Both the position numbers and the translations under genes were made by a program. The notes below the pieces were generated by a model, which saw only the letters and a program-made list of their open reading frames with translations, did not search any database and had not been told where the DNA came from. Below are positions 50,575 through 53,360 of a DNA stretch of 64,000 bases, in pieces; the first letter of the stretch is position 1, and each line of letters begins with the position of its first letter. Origin of the DNA: an uncultured Pelagibacteraceae bacterium (GTDB taxonomy: Bacteria > Pseudomonadota > Alphaproteobacteria > Pelagibacterales > Pelagibacteraceae); contig CACIYQ010000002.1 in NCBI GenBank assembly GCA_902590915.1, positions 1 through 64,000 on the forward strand, written 5' to 3'.

Positions 50575-50893
50575 TCATTTTAAGTGGGTTCACCCAAAAA
50601 TTGTTACGGTGTTGATGAAAATGAATGTTTATTATACTAAAAAAAAACAATCCATAATTAGACCGATTAAGATATCTAGAAAGAAAGAAATTTTTATAAT
50701 AAGATTTTTTAAAGTATTAACCAAGTCTAAACGTAAAAATTTCTAAATATTGATTACTTAATTTATCTAAATAGAAAGCACCATTTCATAAATTGAAAAG
50801 ATTATTAGACGCAATATATACATCGTAGAATTACCTTTAAGTATCTGATAAAAAAAACTTTGTTATTAATGATAATTCTATTATGACTTTTAT
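50575..50893 (+). other. Intergenic gap with one small basic open frame
   Basis: Between ppdK and the FkbM gene I see no RNA gene and no strong terminator. The short inverted repeat TGGG-TTCA-CCCA just after ppdK lacks a T-run. A 43-codon frame at 50615-50746 would encode a lysine-rich peptide starting MKMNVYYTKKKQ; it has no ribosome-binding site or recognisable family and is likely chance. The remainder is A/T-rich. Confidence 0.5.
50615..50746 (+). CDS. Doubtful 43-residue basic peptide
   Basis: ATG to TAA, 43 residues, about a third of them lysine or arginine (ends LTKSKRKNF). No domain, membrane segment or signal is seen. In DNA of this composition a lysine-rich frame of this size arises easily. 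It is listed only because it is the longest frame in a 319-bp gap at the edge of an accessory stretch. Confidence 0.15.
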   Translation: MKMNVYYTKKKQSIIRPIKISRKKEIFIIRFFKVLTKSKRKNF

Positions 50894-51757
50894 ATGTTAA
50901 AAAAATTTTCTTTTATTTGTTTTAATTTACTTGTTTTTTTAGATAATATTTTTAAAATTTTAACCAAAAGAAGCATTTTAATTTATTTTTATGATTTTAT
51001 TCAGGAGCGGTCATATAAATCTATTAAAATTTTAGATAAAGAAATAAAGTTTTTTGTACCTAATCAAATTTCTAATTGGAGAGTTGATACATATTTTTCT
51101 AAAGAACCTGAAACACTTGAGTGGATCGATGGTTTTGAAAAAAAAGATAACTTAATTTTTTGGGATATTGGAGCTAATGTTGGCTTATATTCAATATATA
51201 ATTCTTTAAAAAATCCTAAATCCACAACTATTGCTTTTGAACCCTCAAGTTCTAATTTAAGAGTTTTAACAAGAAATATATCAATTAATAATTTAGAAAA
51301 AAATATAAAAGTAGTTCCCATGCCACTAACAAATAAAGAAAATATTTTTCAAGATATGAATGAGGGGCATTTTCTTGAGGGTGGAGCGTTGAATATATTT
51401 GGAGAAAGATATGATTATGAGGGAAAAGACTTCAAGCCAAATATGAAATACAATTTACTTGGAACAACAATGAATTATTTTATTGAAAATTCAATTTTGG
51501 ATATTCCAGATTATATTAAAATTGATGTAGATGGCATTGAGCATTTAATACTTGAGGGTGGTGATAAGTTTTTAAAGAATGAAAAAGTTAAGAGTTTATC
51601 TGTAGAAATAAATGAAAACTTCAAAGAACAATATGATAACATTCAAAATTTAATGAAAAAATATGAATTTAAATTTCATCATAAAAAACACAATGAAGAT
51701 ATGTTTTCAGATCAAAGTAATTTTAAAAATACTTACAATTATATATTTAAAAAATAA
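50894..51757 (+). CDS. FkbM family methyltransferase
   Basis: 287 residues. The SAM-binding core starts IFWDIGANVGLYSIYNSLK (about 91-109, motif D-x-GANxG), followed by IAFEPSSSNLRVLTRNI (about 114-130, F-E-P motif), and IDVDGIEHLILEGG (about 210-223), the FkbM acidic turn. FkbM enzymes are O-methyltransferases acting on glycans, lipids or polyketides. It stands alone between ppdK and a non-coding stretch, with the accessory look of a surface-modification gene. The first 40 residues are hydrophobic and might attach it to the membrane. Confidence 0.85.
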   Translation: MLKKFSFICFNLLVFLDNIFKILTKRSILIYFYDFIQERSYKSIKILDKEIKFFVPNQISNWRVDTYFSKEPETLEWIDGFEKKDNLIFWDIGANVGLYSIYNSLKNPKSTTIAFEPSSSNLRVLTRNISINNLEKNIKVVPMPLTNKENIFQDMNEGHFLEGGALNIFGERYDYEGKDFKPNMKYNLLGTTMNYFIENSILDIPDYIKIDVDGIEHLILEGGDKFLKNEKVKSLSVEINENFKEQYDNIQNLMKKYEFKFHHKKHNEDMFSDQSNFKNTYNYIFKK

Positions 51758-51866
51758 AATAAGACTAACTATAGCCTAATCTCCACATATCTTCTAATTT
51801 AGTTTTCAACTATTTTTATTTTTAAGATTAAAAAACTATTGGTTTGTAATGATTATTTTTTCTATA

Positions 51867-51888
51867 GGGGCGTTCTGTTTCTCGTCCC
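51867..51888 (-). repeat. tmRNA-type hairpin, copy 1 (diverged)
   Basis: On the plus strand GGGGCG (51867-51872) pairs with CGTCCC (51883-51888), with one G:U, around loop TTCTGTTTCT. It keeps the first 13 bases of copies 2 and 3 (GGGGCGTTCTGTT) but differs in the second half. The second half still closes a stem, so the fold, and not just the sequence, is preserved. Same orientation as the tmRNA. Confidence 0.65.
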
Positions 51889-51995
51889 TTGATTAATAAT
51901 ATACAGAAAATAACACTTTTTCAAAAACTTCGTGTAAAACTTCGTGCTGTTCATTATTTAATATTTGAATTGGAATAAAGGTTTCCGTTGGTTAA

Positions 51996-52020
51996 GGGGC
52001 GTTCTGTTGCCAGGTGCCCC
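51996..52020 (-). repeat. tmRNA-type hairpin, copy 2 (exact)
   Basis: 25 bp identical to the hairpin at 53061-53085 inside the tmRNA gene, in the same orientation. GGGGC (51996-52000) pairs with GCCCC (52016-52020); the loop contains the minus-strand sequence CCTGGCAACAGAA. Bases on either side are not the same as at the tmRNA apart from a short CAAA stretch, so the shared unit is close to 25 bp. Confidence 0.85.
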
Positions 52021-52152
52021 GAACTTTGTTTCAATAATCCTTATATTGTAACACTTAACAATAATCAAATTACGTAATTTATAGAATAATTCCGAATAGA
52101 TGCCGAGCAAAAACGACTCGTAATAGATTACTTGATTTGTTAACCTTCGATC

Positions 52153-52977
52153 ATGAAAAAGATTTTAATGATCATTGTTTTGTCTTTGTTATGGAGTGGA
52201 AATTTATATGCTAACCATTACGATGACTTTTTTGACATGTTTAATAAGTGTTTAATTAAAGAAAACAAATATCAAGACGCAGATAATCGAACCAAAGATG
52301 GATATCTTTATGAATTTTGTAATTTAGAGTTTGATGAAAAGAGAAAATTTAATAGTGAGATTGGGACTATTATAAAGTGGAAAACAAAAAGGTTTTCACC
52401 TGCACAAGATTTAAAAGCTGACGAAGAGAAATCACATTTATTTGAAATTTTAGAATCTGATATCAAACTACTGAGTAGAGCACTAAATATTGAAATTTTT
52501 GCAATTGAGGAAAATAATTCTATAGGCTTAATGAGTATTCGTAATGATTTGAATTACACCATAGAAAATTTAATGGGGGTAACTAGTCATCATGTTGTAA
52601 AAAATGTAGATAAAGATTTATGTAACTCTATAATTTTAAAGCATGCAGATATATTATCAGAAAAATATCTGCTTAAAAAAAAGAATTGGAAAAAATCATC
52701 AGAAATTTATAAGTCAAAAAGAAACTCATATCCAAATGGAAATCCAATTATCACGTATCGAAAGGGTCTTGTGTATAAATTACCTGACAATAAAGAAATT
52801 TATTTATCTTGCGATTATAGACCAGAAGTTTCAACAAAAAGTATTATGTGGAATGTAAATATTTATTATGCAGATTCAGATTTTTTAACTTATTTTAAAA
52901 AATTAAACTGGAAAAAATATTCTAAATTAAATTTAAAAATTATTTGGAAAAAAATAAATGCAGAGTTATATAGTTAA
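52153..52977 (+). CDS. Unrecognised secreted/periplasmic protein
   Basis: 274 residues starting with a good signal peptide (MKKILMIIVLSLLWSGNLYA, cleavage about residue 20, then NHYDD). The mature part is charged and lysine-rich, with four scattered cysteines (CLIKENK, FCNLEFDE, KDLCNSI, LSCDYRPE) that could form disulfides in the periplasm. No domain is recognised. It lies alone between two exact copies of the tmRNA-type hairpin, which suggests an inserted gene. I can give no function. Confidence 0.7.
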   Translation: MKKILMIIVLSLLWSGNLYANHYDDFFDMFNKCLIKENKYQDADNRTKDGYLYEFCNLEFDEKRKFNSEIGTIIKWKTKRFSPAQDLKADEEKSHLFEILESDIKLLSRALNIEIFAIEENNSIGLMSIRNDLNYTIENLMGVTSHHVVKNVDKDLCNSIILKHADILSEKYLLKKKNWKKSSEIYKSKRNSYPNGNPIITYRKGLVYKLPDNKEIYLSCDYRPEVSTKSIMWNVNIYYADSDFLTYFKKLNWKKYSKLNLKIIWKKINAELYS

Positions 52978-53060
52978 AAATAATTCCGAACATAGGCCGA
53001 ATCCCTAGGTTGTATTTTTTAATTAACGTTGATATTGTAAACTAATTTAATAAACGAGTA

Positions 53061-53085
53061 GGGGCGTTCTGTTGCCAGGTGCCCC
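53061..53085 (-). repeat. tmRNA-type hairpin, copy 3 (within tmRNA gene)
   Basis: GGGGC and GCCCC close the hairpin, loop with CCTGGCAACAGAA on the minus strand, at the 3' end of the tmRNA coding piece. The position fits the terminal pseudoknot/hairpin of alphaproteobacterial tmRNA coding pieces. Copies 1 and 2 lie 1.1-1.2 kb to the left. Confidence 0.85.
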
Positions 53086-53318
53086 AGACCCCGTTTGCTT
53101 AATTAACAAAGTTAATTAGGCAGCAAGTGCGTAACTTTCGTTAGCAATTATAAATTAGCCCGTTACGGTGGAACAATCCCGAACGAAAGAATAACTTTTA
53201 GTCATTCGTCGAATCTAGTTCACCCCCATAAGTTGTAGTGGTGGAGGTGGTGGGTACTGCCCCCACGTCCGCAATGGTTATTACGAAATTCGTTTATCGT
53301 CGTAGTTGGAAAACCAAC
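53061..53318 (-). ncRNA. ssrA: Two-piece (permuted) tmRNA
   Basis: On the minus strand the acceptor piece comes first (about 53318-53239) and ends CACCTCCACCA; after an 11-nt spacer (53238-53228) the coding piece starts GGGGGTGAACTAGATTCGAC (53227 down). The two ends pair as a 7-bp acceptor with G3:U70, the alanine identity pair. AATG/CATT and GTTATT/AATAAC pair to form helix 2. The tag frame runs 53145-53119 and encodes ANESYALAA, then TAA (53118-53116). The T-arm is GTGGG-GGCAGTA-CCCAC, lacking the usual TTC. The coding piece probably ends with hairpin 53061-53085. Mature ends are approximate. tmRNA rescues stalled ribosomes with SmpB (not in this window). Permuted tmRNA is standard for Alphaproteobacteria. 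Confidence 0.92.
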
Positions 53319-53324
53319 ATTATT

Positions 53325-53352
53325 AATATAAAAGGAAATACAATAGATTCAA
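53325..53352 (-). promoter_or_regulatory. Possible promoter of the tmRNA gene
   Basis: Read on the minus strand: TTGAAT (53352-53347), 16-nt spacer, TATATT (53330-53325). Transcription would begin near 53318, where the precursor opens with a GTTGG-TTTT-CCAAC hairpin. The -35 lies 9 bp from the thyX start codon on the other strand. Confidence 0.5.
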
Positions 53353-53360
53353 TAACATTC

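Follow-up and report, generated by a model that had tools for sequence, protein, structure and literature searches.

The repeated hairpin at 51867–53085 of the window (the whole stretch of DNA that was analysed, 64,000 nucleotides) is best read as a series of att-site junctions that arose as one element after another inserted site-specifically at the 3′ end of a permuted tmRNA gene, the inserted cassettes being mostly non-autonomous and mobilised in trans; the probability of this reading is put at roughly 0.78. The outer half of the hairpin that ends the tmRNA would be present as a copy in each element, with the core GGGGCGTTCTGTT. Because the element brings this core copy, insertion would leave the former tmRNA end beyond the element and put an identical new one in its place, and the tmRNA would remain whole. 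New elements would enter at the tmRNA-proximal core and push older ones outward, giving an array in one orientation. Cassettes without an integrase would be mobilised by the integrases of tmRNA-specific elements, and transfer between cells would occur via phage particles or DNA uptake. The comparison set consisted of several hundred Pelagibacteraceae genomes; these are draft single-cell genomes, and sequence comparison was used throughout. At that level the set shows core-bounded presence and absence, constant orientation, conserved ends, shared repeats, spread between hosts, cargo free of integrases and two integrase-encoding elements; excision, a circular form and attP were not seen in this comparison of draft genomes.

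The target gene was called by ARAGORN at 53025–53334 on the minus strand as permuted. Since the gene is permuted and lies on the minus strand, the hairpin at 53061–53085 forms the 3′ end of its coding piece; in plus-strand reading the 25 bp are GGGGCGTTCTGTTGCCAGGTGCCCC. The exact repetition of this hairpin at 51996–52020, noted in the original prediction, was confirmed: the 25-mer occurs at both positions on one strand, and none of 100 dinucleotide shuffles contained a match. All three copies read the same way, as had been claimed, with the core on the plus strand at 51867, 51996 and 53061. The predicted folding energies are −20.5 kcal/mol for the tmRNA hairpin and −14.1 kcal/mol for the exact copy. 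The third copy had been described as diverged and still foldable; its first 13 bp are exact, but the remainder is the end of an element family and not a decayed hairpin, and its fold is weak (−5.7 kcal/mol, z −2.1, with 7 of 200 shuffles equally good). It is a hybrid junction rather than a diverged hairpin copy. Genomes sharing the 25-mer, among the matches listed, are assigned to Pelagibacteraceae, Pelagibacterales or Candidatus Pelagibacter and fall within the genus or family of the window genome, and no match within three mismatches was found in 24 genomes from another family of the order. A 16-bp pattern was found in 153 of 197 genomes of the family and in 13 of its 14 genera, where a single match may be the tmRNA itself; arrays with several cores at the tmRNA were read in genera g1, g5 and g15. 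The features of the window are collected in Table 1.

Table 1. Features of the tmRNA-proximal array, in positions of the window.
Feature	Position	Strand	Remarks
Permuted (two-piece) alphaproteobacterial tmRNA, target gene	53057..53356	−	Tag ANESYALAA; Rfam RF01849 (alpha_tmRNA), 223.7 bits
Terminal hairpin of the tmRNA coding piece	53061..53085	+	Proximal (attL-like) junction; core GGGGCGTTCTGTT at 53061–53073
Family E element, 1,065 bp core to core	51996..53060	+	Ends, not cargo, common to L210, L103 and L151
Left-arm matching repeat of E, AATAATTCCGAACATAGGCCGA	52979..53000	+	Pairs with 52085–52106
Cargo ORF of E, 274 aa	52153..52977	+	Hydrophobic N-terminus
Right-arm short repeat of E, AATAATTCCGAATAGATGCCGA	52085..52106	+	Repeat D12; 86% to 52979–53000
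Exact hairpin copy	51996..52020	+	Junction shared by E (distal) and A (proximal)
Family A element, 129 bp, without cargo	51867..51995	+	96.9% to the 129-bp element in L089
Tandem ~12-bp repeats of family A, AAACTTCGTGTA	51925..51946	+	
13-bp core GGGGCGTTCTGTT	51867..51879	+	Junction between the decayed element on the left and element A
Third element, probably older and decayed	50665..51866	+	FkbM-type methyltransferase ORF 50894–51757, Pfam PF05050

The window contains one cargo cassette (E), one cargo-less element (A) and a decayed third element. The original prediction had read the interval as tmRNA, cargo gene, att-like copy, spacer and older att-like copy; the array stands, but the supposed spacer is itself element A. 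The cargo protein of E gave no match in Pfam (E ≤ 1), NCBIfam (E ≤ 0.1) or, among the matches listed, PHROG (E ≤ 0.001). The left core of the third element was not found in the window. Its right end (51813–51879) matches the ends of elements in L209 (92.5%) and L077 (89.6%), its left portion (50665–50830) aligns at 72.7% with 172 bp close to the opposite end of the L077 element, and the whole is probably an older element in decay. The right-to-left order tmRNA, E, A, third element would fit repeated insertion at the tmRNA end, with the oldest element farthest away.

No integrase had been seen in the window at the outset, and this held: the elements in the window carry none, and none of 152 cargo ORFs matched a profile built from 45 tyrosine integrases, which recovered both of two controls. 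Virion genes are likewise absent from the window elements, E holding one ORF of unknown family and A none. As in a tmRNA genomic island, the window elements are bounded by a direct repeat of the tmRNA 3′ end and the gene is left intact; the integrase of such an island is lacking from them and was found only in the elements of G185 and G266. As in CIMEs, they keep both att-like ends and have no integration genes. Because both ends are kept and an integrase is absent, they are filed as att-bounded, integrase-dependent CIME-type cassettes with putative mobilisation.

Searching 168 SAR11 loci (1.75 Mb) gave 228 exact cores, and the reversed-sequence control gave none; the loci overlap slightly, and the cores represent 220 distinct contexts. 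Mixed orientation was found in none of the 44 loci with at least two cores. Within 3 kb of the tmRNA, further cores lay downstream in the same orientation in 25 of 70 loci, which is not an unbiased rate because loci L046–L091 had been picked for carrying the hairpin, often more than once; the opposite orientation was found in 0 of 70, and cores on the upstream side in 0 of 83. In the subset of genome contigs, 20 of 51 had extra cores downstream of the tmRNA. When all collected cores were compared, the 13 bp were constant and both sides modular: a given left flank can precede the tmRNA, a pnp-type end or another element, and a given right flank can follow differing left flanks. This is the pattern expected from exchange inside the core. 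The contigs of L056, L060, L079, L081 and L088 stop no more than a few hundred bases from a hairpin copy, suggesting that the assembly broke at the repeat; arrays are under-counted because contigs frequently end near hairpin copies.

Homologous empty and filled sites support insertion. It had been proposed that the interval be aligned across relatives to see whether repeat-bounded units come and go, and they do. In 18 loci tRNA-Leu is joined to the tmRNA core by 17–35 bp, whereas in three loci it is followed by a short spacer, a core, an element and then the tmRNA core (28 bp and 662 bp in L102, 16 bp and 1,370 bp in L077, and 24 bp and 4,556 bp in L186). A further pair, L184 and L087, has a common left flank (∼220 bp), and L087 has an additional 1,645 bp that start and end at a core. 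Integration at the tmRNA as the origin of the hairpin copies, the central claim of the original prediction, is therefore supported by core-bounded presence and absence, together with integrase-encoding elements at the same site in two other genomes.

In total, 104 core-to-core intervals were listed when up to two core mismatches were allowed. The 67 elements with an exact distal core range from 124 to 5,810 bp (median 895 bp), and 59 of them are no longer than 2 kb. The whole hairpin is kept at the distal end in 47 and the 13-bp core only in 20; the longest ORF lies on the plus strand in 45 and on the minus strand in 15, and seven have none. Minus-strand and cargo-less elements were included in these statistics, L160 and L180 (chance cores) were left out, and one L120 interval was left out of the cargo list. 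Cargo ORFs of at least 85 aa (n = 124, from 77 elements) matched 64 Pfam families, each hit by at least one ORF; the best 25 of the 64 include DNA methylases, a Tsp45I-type restriction enzyme, a polysaccharide lyase and glucose dehydrogenase domains.

Comparison of elements with each other by blastn resolved families in which the ends are conserved and the middles are unrelated. The shared ends extend over roughly 60–145 bp after the distal core and 40–100 bp before the proximal core. Family E comprises window element E, L210, L103 and L151; family A comprises window element A, L089 (129 bp, without cargo), L064, L099 and L167. The ends of element A also flank a Type I restriction–modification system in L064, where the cargo encodes HsdR-like and HsdM/S-like proteins. 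Short repeats lie inside both ends, ∼11–12 bp apart where tandem: AAACTTCGTGTA in family A, ACTTCAATGTAA in family B and ATCCCGTACAT in family H. A word of at least 9 bp (with at least three G/C) was common to both ends in 24 of 56 elements, compared with an average of 2.0 and a maximum of 6.3 when the ends were permuted (200×), a control that is conservative because permutation does not separate families. The other 32 have no shared 9-bp word, and 25 of these score zero. Within family E, CCGA occurs twice in each end of three members and in neither end of L210; for CGTA only a gain in the left end is informative, because it is present twice in every right end of the family. In family F, GTGATC is found in both ends of L105 (first element) and GAGTCC in both ends of L176; L199 and L207 are mixed and L119 carries different motifs in its two ends. 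The end repeats are putatively arm-type binding sites of tyrosine integrases, and their specificity to families suggests several arm-binding integrases.

Two elements at the tmRNA encode such an enzyme. In L378 (G185) exact cores lie 6,173 bp apart with the right core inside the tmRNA, and an integrase ORF (343 aa, PF00589, 6.7e-21) ends beside this core. The closest relative of this integrase among 399 genomes (G266, 52% identity) also adjoins a tmRNA core, and the aligned proteins conserve R, K, HxxR, H and Y positions, the motif expected in tyrosine recombinases. L378 also encodes a 733-aa protein resembling phage primases; integrase and primase are the only functions shown by its ORFs. The element may be a phage satellite, since two of its small proteins have similar counterparts in the G036 prophage (48% over 64 aa and 36% over 67 aa). 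Relatives of the integrase (E ≤ 1e-10) occur in 21 genomes, of which only the two closest are at the tmRNA; among the distant ones (≤34%, full-length matches) none lies beside a tmRNA core. For eight of the others a tRNA gene falls in the retrieved flank, an exact core was found beside none of the others, and the G277 locus has two chance-like cores inside coding sequence, with two mismatches each. The integrase-free 4.56-kb element of L186 shares an arm with the G266 element, with which it aligns over 214 bp through the core and tmRNA start (90.2%) and has a 27-bp repeat in common (96%); this is the most direct apparent link found between an integrase and an integrase-free cassette. An integrase-encoding partner with family A or E arms was not found among the genomes compared. 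The prophage integrases of G028, G080 and G088 were rejected as helpers, being sited at tRNA-Leu with no core within two mismatches, as was that of G036, which lies among prophage genes and also has no core within two mismatches.

Elements are in several cases more alike than their hosts. The L067 element is 96.2% identical to that of L102 over 661 bp and 92.7% identical to that of L161 over 1,593 bp, with 78.9 and 77.4% identity, respectively, in thyX; window element A and its L089 counterpart (96.9%) reside in hosts with 80.3% identical thyX, and the L067 and L204 elements are 99.7% identical over 661 bp with differing right neighbours. Element identity in excess of host identity shows, as far as such comparisons reach, that elements have spread between diverged hosts. 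These values weigh against the view that the elements are eroded remnants only, once-complete islands or prophages that have lost their integrases and of which nothing is now mobile. The decayed third element and the cargo-less 129-bp form in the window would suit this view, as would L186 and G266, which have the same end without and with an integrase; but near-identity of integrase-free elements in diverged hosts and unrelated cargo between identical ends do not, and we consider it unlikely. The partly eroded island array of the original prediction accordingly survives as an insertion array, but its elements look like integrase-free cassettes with maintained ends and not only like eroded islands.

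A host enzyme, the conserved ∼325-aa SAR11 tyrosine recombinase, could instead move the cassettes as a chromosomal integron integrase does; this is rated as quite unlikely. In its favour, PF00589 gave at least one match in 216 of 300 genomes of the genus (mostly one, and mostly of 307–326 aa among the matches listed), serine resolvases (PF00239) were found in one of 151 genomes, and the single-contig genome G322 has a cassette pair at the tmRNA and one PF00589 match. However, the arm repeats are family-specific and six of 44 near-complete genomes have no PF00589 match. In the window genome the only PF00589 protein found (G000:C9, L338:6491-7462, about 323–325 aa) is encoded among surface-polysaccharide (glycosyltransferase-type) genes, with no core within two mismatches in the surrounding 14 kb. 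It may be the counterpart of the probable phage integrase listed for HVR2 in the available portion of Wilhelm et al. (2007; PMC2217521), where attC sites are given as not found with SAR11 hypervariable regions. IntI was absent among the matches listed in the PF00589 survey of the genus, and the window-genome protein scored 26 and 15 bits against integron models (cut-offs 265 and 435). It also lies far below the XerC/XerD cut-offs (72 bits compared with 330 for XerD); genomes of the same order from another family mostly have two strong matches each, among those searched.

SAR11 bacteria are among the most abundant marine cells and have small, thrifty genomes, which variable genes have been considered to enter mostly through homologous recombination, at a small number of hypervariable regions. 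A docking site would give such a genome a spot for swapping genes. As the site can be read from sequence, SAR11 gene flow, including that of restriction–modification genes, would become countable in single-cell genomes and metagenomes, and the site provides a concrete way to test whether helper integrases move the integrase-free cassettes. Beyond this, and only as a tentative proposal that we hold to be somewhat short of even odds, SAR11 may have an integron-like economy without an integron, in which integrase-free cassettes, mostly of one to three genes, share a universal tmRNA-end core and use arm repeats as helper addresses. If so, a concerted change of the arm repeats at both ends would document cassettes changing helpers. 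The elements resemble integron cassettes in being small and mostly single-gene, in forming same-orientation arrays beside a hairpin-forming site and in their very diverse cargo; unlike integron cassettes, they occur without an integron integrase, each unit is armed on both sides, and their core, a short hairpin, differs in layout.

Related systems are compared here on the basis of the portions of the source papers available. The ssrA-specific islands of Dehalococcoides are tandem downstream of the tmRNA, with short direct repeats of its 3′ end, and 15 of them are reported to lack an integration module and proposed to be cis-mobilizable (PMC3146451). The SAR11 elements are likewise tandem, repeat-bounded and downstream of the tmRNA, mostly without an integration module; whereas the Dehalococcoides islands depend on a serine recombinase of the CcrB-like type and sit at the T-loop of a standard tmRNA, those of SAR11 have tyrosine integrases, sit at the hairpin that ends a permuted tmRNA and have a median size of 0.9 kb. 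With CIMEs (PMC5704250) they share both att ends without integration genes and tandem accretion at a shared gene end; CIMEs are described there as decayed ICEs or IMEs, whereas the SAR11 families combine the same ends with unrelated cargo in diverged hosts. Tycheposons and additive flexible genomic islands (PMC10872708) also integrate at RNA-gene ends in streamlined plankton, the additive islands being recognised through recurring 20-bp tRNA-end repeats; tycheposons, however, are of 4–200 kb, encode a tyrosine recombinase and target tRNA genes. The phenomenon is thus of a known kind: ssrA islands and cis-mobilizable elements were already known, but in these portions of the literature the site, size and breadth found in SAR11 were not. 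A description of a SAR11 tmRNA array was not found in the open-licence PMC literature, subscription papers lying outside this scope.

Hairpin copies also occur away from the tmRNA. On contig C1 of the window genome, a 90-aa ORF located between fabI and pnp has a further exact hairpin on one side and a copy with three mismatches on the other. The original prediction had taken repeats at many unrelated sites as grounds for its refutation; copies away from the tmRNA do exist, yet these too flank a gene. At least one hairpin match was found in 29 of 36 genomes of the same genus, several of which carry two to six. G028:C12 (L047), a contig that lacks the tmRNA of that genome, carries five hairpin cores within 7 kb; all of them bear the ACCCGG variant of G028's own tmRNA, and the shared stretch continues for ∼43 bases past the hairpin. 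L385 (G497:C4), with seven cores in 2.4 kb, several intervals of less than 0.5 kb and no tmRNA in the 13 kb read, is by its layout an array at another site. Thirty pnp loci were retrieved, and in 24 of them the sequence at the end of pnp could be read: hairpin and ORF are present in the window genome, L350 and L370 have a hairpin-like (tmRNA-type) remnant directly after pnp in place of the usual terminator-like hairpin, and the remaining readable loci have no hairpin in the 200 bases examined. The fabI–pnp and G028:C12 copies are not explained by tmRNA targeting alone. A dispersed terminator hairpin, spread or reused at gene 3′ ends with the intervening elements incidental, is nevertheless very unlikely: the pnp remnants and the minus-strand longest ORFs (in 15 of the 60 ORF-bearing exact-core elements, several ending 20–55 bp from the hairpin) speak for it, but a terminator would not tolerate the bare 13-bp core at 20 of 67 distal ends, and it is opposed by end conservation that reaches past the hairpin, by the arm repeats that both ends share and by the exact empty sites. 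A terminator role may help to keep hairpin copies, since the minus-strand gene of some cassettes ends at the hairpin.

The suggestion that the 25 bp would be found as attP in pelagiphages came out negative in viral contigs, where neither attP nor an arm was found. Three arm patterns each gave no matches there, blastn of 51850–53085 against phages gave none, and the window cargo protein has no relative in viral contigs; the integrase profile found two relatives, at only 23%. AGGGGCGTTCTGTT occurs in 96 viral contigs, none of them presenting it in an AT-rich intergenic setting like that of the element arms (contexts judged by eye). A phage origin of the window elements was rejected, the 25-mer being found in eight viral contigs (L004–L011) and in all of them within phage-borne permuted tmRNA genes. 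These viral tmRNAs are complete, with the ARAGORN tag ADENLALAA in seven, and one of the contigs is 242 kb in length.
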